Made by a program: the position numbers and the translations under genes
Assembly: GCA_025355255.1 (NCBI GenBank)
Contig: JANYAA010000291.1
Span: 1 to 17,230 of the forward strand
Origin: Chloroflexota bacterium
Lineage (GTDB): Bacteria; Chloroflexota; Limnocylindria; Limnocylindrales; CSP1-4
Reading direction: 5' to 3'
Length of the DNA stretch: 17,230 nt
Notes under the pieces: generated by a model
What the model saw: the letters and a program-made list of their open reading frames with translations, nothing else
The model's database searches: none
Told to the model about the DNA's origin: nothing
Part shown: one piece after another, positions 2,184 to 6,455 of the stretch
Position numbering within the stretch: position 1 is the first letter of the stretch
Layout: each line of letters opens with the position of its first letter

Positions 2184-2196
2184 TGCAATCGTTGCA
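2184..2196. promoter_or_regulatory. Perfect 13-bp palindrome in the ogt/dap promoter region
   Basis: TGCAA-TCG-TTGCA is a perfect inverted repeat. It lies 8 bases upstream of the ogt start codon and overlaps the proposed -35 box of the dap leader promoter. This position suits an operator controlling one or both divergent transcripts. The binding protein is unknown and a 13-bp word may arise by chance. Confidence 0.35.
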
Positions 2197-2220
2197 CAAC
2201 CGAGCGGTACACGGCATACT
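2192..2220 (+). promoter_or_regulatory. Putative dap operon promoter
   Basis: TTGCAC at 2192-2197 and CATACT at 2215-2220 are separated by exactly 17 bp. The expected transcription start, about 2226-2228, is almost at the ATG of the short leader ORF at 2230. This matches the leaderless pattern seen at other genes in the window. Confidence 0.5.
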
Positions 2221-2229
2221 CACGTCCTG

Positions 2230-2307
2230 ATGACGCACCTCCACGCCGCCAACGCGAAAGCCAAAGCGCTGCGGCCCAGCCAGAAGGCTCGGGCCCTGAG
2301 GCTCTGA
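2230..2307 (+). CDS. Putative 25-aa leader peptide of the lysine operon
   Basis: A short ORF of 25 codons runs from the ATG at 2230 to the TGA at 2305-2307. Lysine codons fall at positions 10 (AAA), 12 (AAA) and 19 (AAG), with Arg at 15, 21 and 24; the rest is mainly Ala and Leu (core NAKAKALRPSQKARALRL). AAA is rare in the surrounding GC-rich genes, which nearly always use AAG, so two AAA codons stand out. The ORF lies between a promoter and a strong terminator-like hairpin upstream of dapB. That is the layout of translation-coupled attenuation, in which scarcity of charged tRNA-Lys would stall the ribosome. No Shine-Dalgarno is visible, but the promoter position suggests a nearly leaderless transcript. 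The reading as a leader peptide is inference from layout and codon content. Confidence 0.5.
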   Translation: MTHLHAANAKAKALRPSQKARALRL

Positions 2308-2358
2308 CGCGCGCGCAAGCGACGAGACACGAGCCTCCGGGACTGGAGGCGTCGAGGG

Positions 2359-2396
2359 GCCGCGGACACCAAGTGGTGACCGCGGCTTTTGTGTTT
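2359..2396 (+). terminator. Intrinsic terminator / attenuator hairpin before dapB
   Basis: GCCGCGG at 2359-2365 pairs with CCGCGGC at 2380-2386, and the inner arms CACCA (2367-2371) and TGGTG (2374-2378) also pair. The stem has one A-A mismatch and a tiny loop. It is followed directly by TTTTGTGTTT. No plus-strand gene other than the leader ORF lies upstream, so this terminator makes most sense as an attenuator in the dap leader. It ends 49 bases before the dapB start. Confidence 0.7.
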
Positions 2397-2445
2397 CTCG
2401 GACCTCCTGACCGGCGGCAGATCGCCACGAAAGGACAGTTCGGGA

Positions 2446-3186
2446 ATGCATCTCCTCCTCTACGGACCGGGTCGGCTGGGCGGGGCGGTTGCCTCGGCCG
2501 CCACCGCCGCGGGCTGGACCTGCACGCTTGTCGGCCGCCCGGCTGCGGGCGAGACCCGCGCGGACGCGCCCCTGGCTGACGTGGTGGTGGACACCTCGCT
2601 TGGCGACGCCGTCGCTGACAACCTCGCCCACGCGCTCGCCGCGGGTAACCGCGCGTTCATCCTGGCGGCCACGGGCTGGGACGCGGACATGCCCCGCGTC
2701 CGCGCGATGCTTCAGGAGCACGGCGCCGCGGCCGTCGTGGCCACCAACCTCTCGCTGGGCGCGGCGCTGTTCCTGCGCCTCGTGGAGACGGCCGCCGGCT
2801 GGTACGCCCGGGCTGGCGCCTTTGAGCCGTCCATCGTGGAGTGGCACCGCCGCGGCAAGGCCGATCGCCCGTCCGGCACCGCCCGCGCCATGGCCCGTCG
2901 CATAACCACCGCGGATCCCCGCTGGGCCGGCCCGGACGCGGCCGACGGCGACACCAGGCCCGCCCTCGACGTCTTCGGCATCCGCGCCGGCTCCAACCCG
3001 GGCTCCCATCTGGTGACGTTTGACGGCCAAGGCGAGTCGATCGAGCTCCGCATCGCCGCCCGCGACCGCACGGCCTACGCGGACGGCGCGCTCGCCGCGG
3101 CCCGCTGGCTCACGGCGGAGTGCCGCGCTCCCGGCATCCACGCGTTTGACGCAGTTGTTGACGACCTCCTGGCGGTGCCCGCATGA
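2446..3186 (+). CDS. dapB: 4-hydroxy-tetrahydrodipicolinate reductase
   Basis: This 246-aa cytoplasmic enzyme uses NAD(P)H to reduce hydroxy-tetrahydrodipicolinate to tetrahydrodipicolinate in the diaminopimelate/lysine pathway. The N-terminal Rossmann motif is YGPGRLGG. The catalytic segment WHRRGKADRPSGTA holds His134 and Lys138, equivalent to E. coli His159 and Lys163; the usual second His is Arg here. Also present are NLSLGAALFLRLVE and a C-terminal HLVTFDGQGESIELRIAARD block. The protein is somewhat shorter than the roughly 270-aa E. coli form. The ATG at 2446 was chosen because it places the Rossmann motif at the N-terminus and has AAAGGA about 10 bases upstream; an in-frame upstream extension has no family support. 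It is the first structural gene of dapB-dapA-dapD-lysA and sits behind the attenuator-like leader. Confidence 0.95.
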   Translation: MHLLLYGPGRLGGAVASAATAAGWTCTLVGRPAAGETRADAPLADVVVDTSLGDAVADNLAHALAAGNRAFILAATGWDADMPRVRAMLQEHGAAAVVATNLSLGAALFLRLVETAAGWYARAGAFEPSIVEWHRRGKADRPSGTARAMARRITTADPRWAGPDAADGDTRPALDVFGIRAGSNPGSHLVTFDGQGESIELRIAARDRTAYADGALAAARWLTAECRAPGIHAFDAVVDDLLAVPA

Positions 3187-3256: not shown

Positions 3257-4279
3257 ATGGCCCGCACCACGCCCCCCACCCACGGCACCGTCCCCGGCCT
3301 TCGCGGCGCGTTCACCGCGCTCGTCACCCCGTTCACCACAGACGGCACCCTCGACGAGGCCACGTTCCGCCGTCTGGTCGCCCGCCAGATCACCCTCGGC
3401 ATCGACGGCCTCGTCCCCGTCGGCACCACAGGCGAGAGCCCCACGCTCAGCGCCGAGGAGCGCGACCGGCTCATCGAGATCGCCATCGAGGAGGTCAACG
3501 CCCGCCCGTCGCGCACGCGGATCCCGGTCATCGCCGGCACGGGGAGCAACGACACCCGCGCCAGCATCGAGGCCACCCGGCGGGCCGCCGCCATGGGCGC
3601 CAACGCCGCGCTCATCGTCACGCCGTACTACAACAAGCCCGACCAACGCATGATCGAGGCGCACTTCCGCGCCATCGCCGATGAGGGTGGTCTGCCCATC
3701 GTCGTCTACAACGTCCCCGGGCGGACCGGCGTCAACGTTGACGCGGACACGTTCCTGCGGCTCGCCGAGCACCCGCGCGTCGTGGCGATCAAGGAGGCCA
3801 GCGCCAACATCGACCAGTTTGCGGTGATCTGCCGTGACCGCCCGCGTGACGTGGCCGTCCTCTCCGGTGACGACGCGGCAACGCTGGCGCTCCTCGCGAT
3901 GGGCGGCGACGGCGTGATCTCCGTGGCGTCCAACGAGCTGCCGGGCGAGATGTCCGCGCTGGTCCACGCGTGGCACGCGGGCGACGCGGCTGAGGCGCTG
4001 CGCATCCACAACCAGCTGCTCCCGCTGATGCGCGGCAACTTCCAGGGCGGGCCAAACCCGGTGCCGGCGAAGGCCGCGATGCTGGCGATGGGCCTGCTCG
4101 ACACGGACATGCTGCGCATGCCGATGCTGCCGATGGCCGATGCGGCGCGGACGCGCCTGGAGGGGATCCTCGATGGTATGGGGCTGCTTGGCCTGGCGGC
4201 GCGTGAGACGGCGGCGATGACCCCTGCGATGCCGACACAGCCGACCAACGTGGCCGAGCTTGTCGAGGCTGCCGCGTGA
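3257..4279 (+). CDS. dapA: 4-hydroxy-tetrahydrodipicolinate synthase
   Basis: This 340-aa TIM-barrel aldolase condenses pyruvate with aspartate semialdehyde, the committed step to diaminopimelate and lysine. Visible signatures are GTTGESPTLSAEER at the pyruvate site, TPYYNKP with catalytic Tyr near residue 125, and VVAIKEAS with the Schiff-base Lys179. The family norm is about 290-300 aa; the excess is an 18-residue N-terminal tail and a C-terminal extension rich in Ala, Pro and Thr. The ATG at 3257 has AGGAG 9 bases upstream. It lies 70 bases after dapB and shares GTGA with the next gene, so translational coupling is likely. Identification is secure; related N-acetylneuraminate lyases and similar aldolases are less likely given the dap neighbours. 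Confidence 0.96.
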   Translation: MARTTPPTHGTVPGLRGAFTALVTPFTTDGTLDEATFRRLVARQITLGIDGLVPVGTTGESPTLSAEERDRLIEIAIEEVNARPSRTRIPVIAGTGSNDTRASIEATRRAAAMGANAALIVTPYYNKPDQRMIEAHFRAIADEGGLPIVVYNVPGRTGVNVDADTFLRLAEHPRVVAIKEASANIDQFAVICRDRPRDVAVLSGDDAATLALLAMGGDGVISVASNELPGEMSALVHAWHAGDAAEALRIHNQLLPLMRGNFQGGPNPVPAKAAMLAMGLLDTDMLRMPMLPMADAARTRLEGILDGMGLLGLAARETAAMTPAMPTQPTNVAELVEAAA

Positions 4280-5097
4280 CGGAGGCATCGGCTGCCCCCG
4301 CCGAGGCTTCGATCCTCAACGAGCTTGACGCCGGGCGCCGGCGCGCCGCGGTGCCGGAACCCTCAGCACCCGGCGGCTGGCGCGCAGACCCGGAGGTCAA
4401 GGCGGCGATCCTCGCGTGCTTCCGCGATCGGGCGACGGCAACCTGGGATCTCGACGGCGCCCTGCGCTTTCGGGACCGCGTGGGGCTGCCCGTGAAGCGG
4501 GTGCTGGACGGACCGGAGGCCGATGCGGCGCTGGCCGCCGGTCGGCCATGGCGGATCGTCCCCGGCGGCACGTCGCTGCGGGCTGGCGTCTACCTCGGCC
4601 CGGGCGTCGTGGTCATGCCGCCCTCGTTTGTGAACGTGGGCGCCTGGATCGGCGAGGACACCATGGTGGACAGCCATGTCCTCGTTGGCTCCTGCGCCCA
4701 GATCGGCGCGCGGGTCCATCTCTCGGCCGGCGTGACCATCGGCGGCGTCCTGGAGCCTGCGGGTGCGCGCCCGGTCATCGTGGAGGACGGCGCCTTTGTG
4801 AGCGCCGGGTGCTCGCTGCTGGAGGGCGTCCTCGTTGGCGCAGGTGCCGTGCTGGGTGCGGGTGTGATCCTCACCGGGACGTCCCGCCTGTACGACCTCG
4901 TCCGCGGCCGCGTGCTTCAGGGGACAACCGAGGCGCCGCTCGTCGTGCCGCCGGGCGCCGTGGTGGTCCCGGGCACGCGTGCCCTCGGTGGCGCCTTTGC
5001 GGAGGAGCACGGGCTCTCCGCGGCAGTGGCGCTGCTGGTCAAGGACCGCGACACTGGCACCGACGCCCGCGTTGCTCTTGAGGATGTGCTTCGATGA
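4276..5097 (+). CDS. dapD: Tetrahydrodipicolinate N-succinyltransferase
   Basis: This 273-aa enzyme transfers succinyl from succinyl-CoA to tetrahydrodipicolinate, which places the organism on the succinylase branch of lysine synthesis. The N-terminal helical part has the LNELDAGRRRAA and VKAAILACFRDR blocks typical of DapD. From about residue 105 a left-handed beta-helix of hexapeptide repeats begins, with family-specific stretches PPSFVNVGAWIGEDTMVDSH, VGSCAQIGARVHLSAG and IGGVLEPAGARPVIVED. The length equals that of E. coli DapD. The start is GTG at 4276, overlapping the dapA stop by four bases. The gene in turn overlaps lysA by ATGA. The next pathway genes, dapC and dapE, are not in the window and must lie elsewhere. 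Confidence 0.95.
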   Translation: MTEASAAPAEASILNELDAGRRRAAVPEPSAPGGWRADPEVKAAILACFRDRATATWDLDGALRFRDRVGLPVKRVLDGPEADAALAAGRPWRIVPGGTSLRAGVYLGPGVVVMPPSFVNVGAWIGEDTMVDSHVLVGSCAQIGARVHLSAGVTIGGVLEPAGARPVIVEDGAFVSAGCSLLEGVLVGAGAVLGAGVILTGTSRLYDLVRGRVLQGTTEAPLVVPPGAVVVPGTRALGGAFAEEHGLSAAVALLVKDRDTGTDARVALEDVLR

Positions 5098-6455
5098 TGG
5101 TCCGCGAGCCTGGCCCGTCGCCCGCGCGTGTGGATGCGCCCGCGATCCGTCGTGGCCGTCCGCTGGCACGCAACGAGATCCTGCGCAACGGCCGGCTTGG
5201 CGGCATCGCCCCGGCGGAGCTCGCGGAGCGCTTCGGCACGCCGTTCTACGCCTACGACCTCGACGTGGTCACGCGCCAGGTGGCCGCCCTGCGAACCGCG
5301 CTGCCGCCGGTGTTCGACCTCGCGTATGCCGTCAAGGCCAACCCCAACCTCGCGGTGCTGCGCCATCAGGCTTCGCTTGGCCTTGGTGCGGACGTGGCGT
5401 CCGGCGGCGAGCTGCGCCATGTCCTGCGCGCCGGGTTTGCGCCGGAGCACATCGTCTTCACCGGTCCAGGCAAGCGTGACGACGAGCTGGCAGCGGCCGT
5501 GGCGGCCGGTGTCCGCGTGGTCACCGTGGAATCGGTGGGGGAGCTGCGGCGTCTGGCGCGGATCGCGGAGGCGCATTCCCGTCGCCAGCCAATCCTCCTG
5601 CGTGCCGCGGCCGTTGAGGCGGCACGTCACGAGCGGGTGCGGATCATCGGCGACGAGGGCGCCGGCAAGTTCGGGATGGACGAGGCGGACCTGGCCATCG
5701 CCGCTGCCGAGGCCGTGGCCTCGCCTTGGCTTGAACCCCTTGGTCTGCACGCGTTTGGCGCGTCCAACCTGCTCGACGCGCACGCCCTGGCGGGTCATGT
5801 CGAGGCCACCGTGGCTATGGCCGTGCGCATCGCTGCCGATGCTGGCTTTGCGCTGCGGCTGGTGGACTGCGGCGGCGGTCTCGGCATCCCATACGACGTG
5901 CACGAGCCCGTGCTGGACGTCGCGCTGCTGGGGTCCCGCCTCGCGACGCTGGCGTTGCGTCTGGCCGCCGATCCCGCAACTGCCGACACCCGGCTCCTGC
6001 TCGAGCCCGGCCGCTACCTCGTGGGCCCGTCCGGCGCGTACGTCGCCCGGGTCACGGAGCGCAAGGAGGTTGCCGGCCACCACGTGGTGATTCTCGATGG
6101 CGGCATCCACCACGTCCTGCGGCCCACGCTCGTGGGGCAGGAGCACCGCGTCCGCGTCCTGACCGGCGTCGCGGCGGGCTCGGCTGCTGGCCCCGGCAGG
6201 TTCCCCGTCACCATCGCGGGACCCCTGTGTACAGGGCTGGACGTCTTCGTCCACTCGGGCGTCATGGCGCTGCCCGACCCGGGTGATCTGGTGGCCGTGC
6301 TGGACGTTGGCGCCTACGGGGCCACCGAATCGATGCCGTTCTTCCTGTCGCACGCCCTCCCGCCCGAGATCGCCATCCGGGGCGGCGAGGCCTGGGTGGC
6401 CCGCCCGCGCATCGACCCTGACGTCTGGCTGGGCTGGCAGGTGGGCGAGCCCTAG
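5094..6455 (+). CDS. lysA: LysA-like PLP-dependent decarboxylase (probable DAP decarboxylase)
   Basis: This 453-aa fold-type III PLP enzyme most likely removes CO2 from meso-diaminopimelate to give lysine, as the last gene of the dap operon. PLP-binding Lys81 is in YAVKANPN. GAGKFGMDEADL, the glycine-rich LVDCGGGLGIPY, LEPGRYL and GAYG are also present. However, the C-terminal active-site block reads GPLCTGLDVF and GAYGATESMPFFLSH, instead of the CESGD and GAYGxxMSSNYN forms of classical LysA. The specificity helix region reads LHAFGASN rather than LHxHIGSQ. These features resemble the BtrK/PvsE branch that acts on carrier-bound or siderophore precursors. Context supports DAP as substrate, while the motifs leave room for another. 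The start ATG overlaps the dapD stop as ATGA. The N-terminus is about 30 residues longer than needed. Confidence 0.75.
   Translation: MMVREPGPSPARVDAPAIRRGRPLARNEILRNGRLGGIAPAELAERFGTPFYAYDLDVVTRQVAALRTALPPVFDLAYAVKANPNLAVLRHQASLGLGADVASGGELRHVLRAGFAPEHIVFTGPGKRDDELAAAVAAGVRVVTVESVGELRRLARIAEAHSRRQPILLRAAAVEAARHERVRIIGDEGAGKFGMDEADLAIAAAEAVASPWLEPLGLHAFGASNLLDAHALAGHVEATVAMAVRIAADAGFALRLVDCGGGLGIPYDVHEPVLDVALLGSRLATLALRLAADPATADTRLLLEPGRYLVGPSGAYVARVTERKEVAGHHVVILDGGIHHVLRPTLVGQEHRVRVLTGVAAGSAAGPGRFPVTIAGPLCTGLDVFVHSGVMALPDPGDLVAVLDVGAYGATESMPFFLSHALPPEIAIRGGEAWVARPRIDPDVWLGWQVGEP

Follow-up and report, generated by a model that had tools for sequence, protein, structure and literature searches.

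Leader-peptide attenuation is the classical mode of control for the trp, his, leu, thr, phe and ilv operons, represented in Rfam by the families whose names end in _leader, while TnaC stands for leaders that act by nascent-peptide arrest. Accounts of lysine and methionine genes usually feature riboswitches or T-boxes, the lysine T-boxes being a case of leader-RNA control of lysine genes. Polycysteine leaderless ORFs were reportedly described by Canestrari et al. in 2020. For Mycobacterium tuberculosis, the accessible part of PMC13236596 describes an attenuator of ilvB1NC that has a uORF, mutually exclusive terminator and antiterminator structures and a Rho-independent terminator, and presents mycobacterial cysteine genes as being under translation attenuation; mycobacterial cysteine uORFs are called possible first cases for cysteine in the available portion of PMC4633059. 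For the lysine and methionine operons of Actinobacteria, the portion of PMC1262725 that was open to us records no conserved RNA structures upstream, and riboswitches elsewhere. A literature search, with subscription journals largely outside its reach, recognised no leader-peptide attenuator for lysine or methionine.

Here we describe a leader upstream of dapB in a Chloroflexota bacterium that has the sequence-level features of a ribosome-mediated attenuator, namely an upstream ORF with codons for the product of the operon and an intrinsic terminator between that ORF and the first structural gene. Very probably, it is a ribosome-mediated transcription attenuator of dapB-dapA-dapD-lysA that senses charged tRNA-Lys.

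The leader element and its operon

The window, by which we mean the whole stretch of 17,230 nucleotides analysed, contains the leader just upstream of dapB. A direct check of the sequence re-located the promoter, ORF, hairpins, terminator and dapB start at the coordinates that the initial annotation had given them. The parts, with the pairing arms lettered A to G, are these:

2192 to 2220, plus strand: predicted sigma-70-type promoter, from motifs; TTGCAC 2192-2197, 17-nt spacer, CATACT 2215-2220
2230 to 2307, plus strand: leader peptide ORF, ATG to TGA, 25 codons, MTHLHAANAKAKALRPSQKARALRL and stop; read from the sequence, recurs in relatives
2257 to 2265, plus strand: regulatory codons K-x-K, AAA (codon 10, K1), GCC, AAA (codon 12, K2); from codon conservation
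2271 to 2277, plus strand: arm A, GCGGCCC, putative antiterminator arm, whose partner is the terminator 5' arm F, or B; from conservation and pairing
2273 to 2295, plus strand: hairpin A:B, GGCCC.AGCC/GGCT.GGGCC, within the ORF, which would sequester arm A; pairing conserved
2298 to 2304, plus strand: arm C, GAGGCTC, adjoining the stop codon; pairs with D and would be hidden by a ribosome at the stop codon; from pairing and folding
2331 to 2350, plus strand: hairpin D:E, GAGCCTCC..GGAGGC, the alternative to C:D, with a loop GGG that can pair with CCC of B; from pairing and folding
2357 to 2396, plus strand: predicted intrinsic terminator (hairpin and U-rich tail), 5' arm F in 2357-2365, 3' arm G 2380-2386, then TTTTGTGTTT to 2396

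The start codon lies 9 nt past the end of the -10 element, and the lysines of the ORF are codons 10 (2257-2259), 12 (2263-2265) and 19. Arms D (GAGCCTC) and E (GGAGGC) occupy 2331-2337 and 2345-2350, respectively, and the terminator hairpin of 2359-2386 has one A.A mismatch. Simple promoter and terminator scanners called neither this promoter nor this terminator. The leader element is beyond chance, with parts that recur in relatives and an unusually stable fold: 2226-2400 lies 4.1 sd below dinucleotide shuffles, and none of 200 shuffles was equally stable. The flanking genes are as follows:

Starting near 2178, minus strand: MGMT-type gene, the upstream neighbour of the leader
2446 to 3186, plus strand: dapB, 4-hydroxy-tetrahydrodipicolinate reductase (divergent); Pfam DapB_C, E 8.7e-24; TIGR00036, E 2e-27, 96.4 bits, below the cut-off of 122
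3257 to 4279, plus strand: dapA; TIGR00674, 306.1 bits, cut-off 206.15
4276 to 5097, plus strand: dapD, tetrahydrodipicolinate N-succinyltransferase; NF008808, 242.6 bits, cut-off 204
5094 to 6455, plus strand: lysA-like, diaminopimelate decarboxylase; Orn_Arg_deC domains; TIGR01048, E 2.9e-79, 266.5 bits, below the cut-off of 297.9

For the lysA-like protein, TIGR03099 (301.4) outscores TIGR01048 and is likewise below its own cut-off. The dapA and dapD frames (4276-4279) share 4 bases, as do the dapD and lysA frames (5094-5097), an arrangement seen in translationally coupled operons. Lysine makes up 1 of the 246 residues of DapB, 3 of the 25 in the window leader and 174 of 1589 in the 67 dapB-type leaders described below. 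Just 5' of dapB, motifs resembling CCTCC and able to pair with the dapB Shine-Dalgarno were seen by eye in the leaders L012 (CCTCCAGCAGGAGG), L016, L018 and L021, hinting at a candidate extra layer of translational control. Pairing of arm E with a CCTCC motif 3' of the terminator gave no excess over shuffles (7 of 67 at p <= 0.05, median p 0.37) and was rejected.

Conservation in relatives

A DapB protein search of 61 genomes (the source genome and 60 relatives) gave matches in 25, and the upstream DNA was read at one dapB locus in each of these; L022 and L026 are one gene split in two matches, whose leader was counted once, and the weak extra match L027 was excluded. All 25 loci have a short ORF with at least two Lys codons and a terminator-like U-tailed hairpin (for example, MRRIFLTDEAKKKLWRPCREARALGL in L021), the remaining hairpins being more divergent in L023 and L025 than in the other dapB leaders. 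Ten relatives that carry a name are Chloroflexi MAGs. As one leader sequence occurs twice among the 25, the covariance model R1 was built from the 24 distinct ones. In genome scans run with stricter filters, in which weak matches are lost, R1 found leaders of any type in 79 of the 107 genomes scanned in the family and in 84 of 177 across the class. It matched 31 of the 34 best family genomes (completeness of 90% or more, contamination of 5% or less) and, in a sample of the phylum, 29 of 400 genomes, where only two marginal matches (27 bits) fell outside the class. Of the 147 matches that could be mapped, 67 are linked to dapB, in 66 genomes, and each of these 67 has an ORF at the model start, with 2-4 Lys, 19-30 amino acids and a start codon of ATG (64) or GTG (3). 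Forty-three of them are outside the training set (one is identical to a training row), and all 43 have at least two Lys. The initial annotation had pointed to a conserved Lys-codon ORF and covarying stems before dapB as the features to look for in relatives; the former is present in 25 of 25 loci, and A:B, D:E and F:G covary. By its recurrence, the short Lys-codon ORF with its putatively switchable terminator is a genuine, conserved element.

No match to the known Rfam amino-acid leader families was found in the window at the gathering threshold or, permissively, in 2130-2500. The same scans bear on an unrecognised lysine riboswitch or T-box, which we regard as a practically negligible alternative. 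T-box-like matches do occur elsewhere in 101 of the 107 family genomes, none of them over the cut-off, but the window had no Rfam match to either class at the gathering threshold, neither family appeared in the permissive scan of 2130-2500, and the lysine riboswitch RF00168 was matched in 0 of 107 family genomes versus 4 of 14 control genomes. Nor did the T-box covariance model RF00230 match the dapB leader. The T-box-like matches, in the source genome (G000:C496:12671-12957) and 100 other family genomes, reach at best 82 bits among those listed down to about 34, against a gathering score of 93, which suggests that divergent T-boxes are present in the family of the source genome.

Promoter and start codon

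The lysine leaders share a promoter motif and its spacing to the ORF. Of 66 such leaders, 64 have a -35 element starting with TTG, all 66 a -10 element with A2 and T6, and 62 a spacer of 17-18. Because a promoter scan picks the best site, a shuffled control was used, and the best-site score was 10.3 versus 6.9 (sd 1.3) in shuffles. A Shine-Dalgarno-like motif is present in 1 of 66. Since the -10 element ends only 6-11 nt before the start codon in these 66 leaders, the ORF is probably translated from a leaderless or nearly leaderless mRNA; judging from this spacing, transcription should start at the start codon or a few bases off it.

Codon identity and the downstream operon

R1 was trained on dapB leaders only, and hence the Met leaders, the Cys leaders and the 43 additional dapB leaders were found without having been put in. 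Of 150 matches listed, 147 were mapped to DNA and the next gene was compared with reference proteins. It is dapB in 67, metY in 50, carbonic-anhydrase-like in 3, OsmC-like in 3, threonine synthase in 2, SCO4226-like in 1 and DUF4395 in 1, and 20 have no reference match; the family searches were done on single representatives, and the OsmC and threonine synthase labels are interpretation. Among the 20, six full-length matches precede cysE-like genes, and three partial ones (L157, L163 and L164) have, by eye, a leader like the cysE ones. The cysE family search, made for L154 only, put TIGR01172 below its cut-off and NF041874 just above.

When the leaders are anchored so that K2 is the codon three before CGG-CCC, Lys stands at K2 in 64 of 66 dapB leaders versus 0 of 66 other leaders, four of the latter (three OsmC-like rows and one thrC row) being weak negatives because they were anchored in the wrong frame; Lys stands at K1 in 61 of the 66 dapB leaders. 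As to the two dapB exceptions at K2, G079 is an anchor error (peptide KPKSKRW) and G022 has its Lys one codon off. The K2 position is Met in 47 of 50 metY leaders, and Cys in the six cysE leaders (e.g., MNSRDFACSCPRRPRRRR) and in the DUF4395 leader of the source genome. Fifteen of the 147 mapped matches are unanchored: the dapB leader of G059 (KSK by eye), the thrC leader of G104, a contig-end fragment in G094 whose Lys leader is followed by no visible gene, the three partial cysE matches, and nine others that are short, opposite-strand, overlapping or chance.

In the 66 dapB leaders, the first two bases of both Lys codons are kept in 65-66 of 66 and the third bases vary between A and G, while the codon between K1 and K2 varies at all positions. 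Variable third bases and a variable middle codon argue for selection for lysine, not RNA shape. It is highly unlikely, then, that this is a constitutive terminator or an sRNA gene with an incidental ORF, which a weak, sub-threshold Rfam likeness to sRNA families ending in a similar terminator (E 0.27 and above) might bring to mind: an incidental ORF is at odds with Lys codons kept through third-base changes, with a promoter-to-start-codon distance that hardly changes over 66 leaders and with a codon identity that follows the downstream operon.

Several individual leaders outside the dapB set deserve mention. In the source genome, L068 (G000:C322:4153-4320, minus strand) encodes MIHTTVSWLMCMRGRPRRSETGAGFSAR and a stop, with Met-Cys-Met, before the O-acetylhomoserine sulfhydrylase gene metY (TIGR01326 above cut-off), and L069 (G000:C95:4415-4573) has a poly-Cys ORF (...VSTACCCCRRRPRS...) and a terminator-like hairpin before a DUF4395 gene, and is perhaps a cysteine-responsive attenuator. 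L154 and L158-L162, from the family genus g2, have a leader of the form M...C-x-C-PRRPRRRR, then stop, before a serine O-acetyltransferase-like cysE. Met-x-Met leaders precede threonine-synthase-like genes in L146 (MTPLASPMAMPCGPNEDGA, read by hand) and L085 (MAPHLDRMSMRWAPSGGDGA). At L071 (G059:C5:140092-140753), a Lys leader (dapB) and a Met-Cys-Met leader (SCO4226-like gene) are divergent, about 320 nt apart.

RNA pairing and covariation

In an alignment of 66 sequences that was fitted to the A:B/D:E/F:G structure, these three helices together are paired in 93.7% of cells, with 41 double-change cells versus 9.9 in shuffles; in a MAFFT alignment of 24 leaders the figures are 92.4% and 20 versus 7.3. 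Taken singly, A:B is paired in 93.1% of cells, with 4 pairs that show changes on both sides, D:E in 90.5% with 5, and the terminator F:G in 98.7% with 3. The GAGGCTC:GAGCCTC pair (C:D) of the initial annotation is conserved as well, at 88.4% of cells, and compatible with the revised model developed here.

Arm A (GCGGCCC, 2271-2277) can pair with the 5' arm of the terminator (GGGCCGC, 2357-2363), and the resulting A:F helix is formed in 99.1% of cells. In 63 of 66 rows none of its 7 pairs is lost, and it has two compensatory double changes, in L102 and L104, a small number that takes no account of phylogeny. The first bases of arm A, G and C, are invariant in 66 of 66 although they lie outside both A:B and B:F. 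A search upstream of F for its best complement leads to arm A in 66 of 67 Lys leaders, 48 of the 53 Met leaders in which F was located (57 were tried) and 7 of 7 Cys leaders, one of them with 4 bases.

The initial annotation had the terminator invaded by arm B instead, with GGCCC (2292-2296) pairing to GGGCC (2357-2361) while C pairs with D. The F arm is indeed invaded in the predicted antiterminated state, but by arm A (2271-2277) and not by GGCCC 2292-2296. A Lys-codon attenuator working through B:F is, on balance, improbable. C:D and B:F taken together reach 90.1% of cells across 66 leaders, which beats slid controls, and 53 of 66 rows keep every one of the five inner B:F pairs, but there is no excess of double changes over shuffles (7 versus 7.2), and the arm that best complements F in the Lys leaders is A, not B. 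L102 and L104, whose double changes preserve A:F, each lose one B:F pair as aligned (by eye, a register shift in L104 could give five pairs). In the window, B:F also falls short of A:F by about 10-16 kcal/mol, and its probability is 0.00 in partial and full folds with the +11 and +15 edges defined below. The proposed antiterminator needs correction, and A:F is to replace it.

Predicted ribosome-dependent switch

To fold the switch, the bases covered by the ribosome were masked, a mask edge of +11 meaning masked to the 11th base from the P site, and transcripts were ended before the 3' arm G of the terminator. Across the 24 leaders the mean probability of A:F is 0.18 with no ribosome. A ribosome with K2 in its A site is predicted to give 0.95, 0.79, 0.60, 0.14 and 0.00 with 11, 12, 13, 15 and 17 bases masked, respectively, and the leaders in which A:F exceeds 0.5 number 23 of 24 (11 bases), 15 (13), 2 (15) and 0 (17); with K1 in the A site the mean is 0.82 (11 masked) and 0.97 (13 masked). 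A codon-by-codon scan with the +11 edge put the maximum of A:F upstream of arm A at K2 and the preceding codon, while with the +15 edge K1 works (0.89) and K2 fails (0.05). A:F is zero while arm A is covered, which is partly trivial, and near the stop codon it returns to 0.47-0.76, without C:D. The window behaves likewise, A:F rising with the +11 edge from 0.01 to 0.99-1.00 with the ribosome at K1 or K2, and with the +15 edge being 1.00 at K1 and 0.00 at K2; when stalled transcripts are cut off at 2366, the pairing of B with the D:E loop reaches 0.98-0.99. Among 67 Lys, 6 Cys and 57 Met leaders offered for folding, 66, 5 and 54 gave values, and the rise in A:F at K2 was from 0.23 to 0.87, from 0.02 to 0.99 and, weakly, from 0.54 to 0.79, respectively.

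The predicted switch depends on the footprint assumed, and other features of these folds temper it too. Masking of the 5' region raises A:F unspecifically (mean 0.43 with the ribosome nine codons upstream, 19 leaders), so part of the increase is not specific to ribosome position. Moreover, A:F forms in partial transcripts at some footprints and not with the longest masks, and in full-length RNA at equilibrium the terminator wins in all states (at least 0.70 in every state across 24 leaders, and 0.97-1.00 in the window). Any switch would therefore have to be a kinetic one, in which A:F forms first and holds. The GCCTCC/GGAGGC pairing (D:E) that the initial annotation gave as the alternative for GAGCCTC is conserved and covarying, as seen above, but since C:D is already at 1.00 in the window without a ribosome, D:E is not the free state there.

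B:F suits a long footprint that hides arm A at K2, replacing A:F under the longest masks in 6-7 of 24 leaders (7 of 24 above 0.5, and 6 of 24 in a second run); in the window B:F reaches 0.24-0.52 with 15-17 nt masks, the value at 17 nt being 0.52.

A ribosome parked at the stop codon also permits A:F, at 0.98 in the window and in 15 of 24 leaders. This prediction would suit a TnaC-like nascent-peptide arrest: stalling at the stop codon would be caused by the WRPCREAR tail, which most lysine leaders conserve, and arm A would thereby be freed. We consider such arrest very unlikely and set it aside because L016 keeps the RNA GCGGCCC although its reading frame there differs. The tail has its explanation in the RNA hairpin that it encodes, WRP lies at varying distances from the stop among leaders, and peptide arrest leaves unexplained why the regulatory codon tracks the amino acid of the operon.

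Proposed mechanism

A lysine leader-peptide attenuator, as the initial annotation had it, is the best reading of the locus: Lys ORF, hairpins and terminator stand before dapB in 25 of 25 loci, and the regulatory codon tracks the operon amino acid. From the conservation, codon identity, promoter spacing and pairing given above, and with the ribosome-dependent switch a computational prediction, we infer translation, stalling, termination and a lysine response of the following kind. RNA polymerase would start at ATG 2230 or a few bases before it, and a ribosome would follow on the leaderless or nearly leaderless mRNA. With lysine ample, the ribosome would pass codons 10-12, reach the stop codon and hide arm C; on its release, A:B would hold arm A, the F:G terminator would form and transcription would stop near 2390. 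As for the A:F pairing that the folds allow with a ribosome at the stop codon, we assume that it is prevented by this release or by a bulky ribosome lying between A and F. When charged tRNA-Lys is scarce, the ribosome would halt with codon 10 or 12 in the A site, covering the bases before arm A and leaving A free. C would then pair with D, B with the D:E loop, and A (2271-2277) with F (2357-2363) before G is made, so that transcription would read into dapB.

Comparison with known systems

If true, a lysine leader-peptide attenuator would carry an old mechanism over to an amino acid that is new to it and into a phylum that has been little studied. Versions with Lys, Met and Cys codons would amount to a natural codon-swap experiment, in which the codon follows the operon and its distance to the antiterminator arm is fixed, and the ribosome-position rule of attenuation is thereby made directly testable. 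The leader may also serve as a chassis, a small and re-codable sensor of amino-acid supply.

With the classical attenuators the dapB leader shares an ORF rich in codons for the operon product, followed by predicted alternative RNA structures and by an intrinsic terminator that precedes the first gene of the pathway. Unlike them, it has no Rfam leader match, uses lysine codons (and, in paralogous leaders, methionine codons) and has a probably leaderless ORF; the putative antiterminator arm directly follows the regulatory codons and pairs with the 5' arm of the terminator, the sequestering strand lying 3' of that arm. As far as the accessible part of PMC13236596 describes it, the ilvB1NC attenuator shares with the dapB leader a uORF of regulatory codons, a terminator and antiterminator that exclude each other (in the dapB leader by prediction) and a Rho-independent terminator, and differs in its branched-chain codons (LVVI) and its 166-nt leader. 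The mycobacterial Cys-rich uORFs, in the portions of the sources available, are leaderless short ORFs sensing the amino acid of the downstream genes, and so come closest to the Cys leaders found here; unlike those uORFs, the dapB leader has a U-tailed terminator and a conserved putative switch and is predicted to sense lysine. The lysine riboswitch (RF00168) and T-boxes likewise exert leader-RNA control of lysine genes, but the dapB leader matches neither model, and sensing is proposed to go through a translated ORF.

Attenuator features combined with the absence of a precedent recognised in the literature search therefore place the element in a known mechanism class, in which the amino acids, the probably leaderless ORF, the order of the pairing arms and the re-coded family are new. 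We think it likely that the family is a codon-programmable attenuator chassis, with a leaderless ORF, a regulatory codon at a fixed register before GCGGCCC and a terminator 5' arm GGGCCGC, copied within one Chloroflexi class and re-coded for Lys (lysine operon), Met (metY and related genes) and Cys (cysE). Lysine and methionine would then have their first leader-peptide attenuators, in which the antiterminator joins an arm directly to the terminator and so departs from the 1:2, 2:3, 3:4 order of trp.
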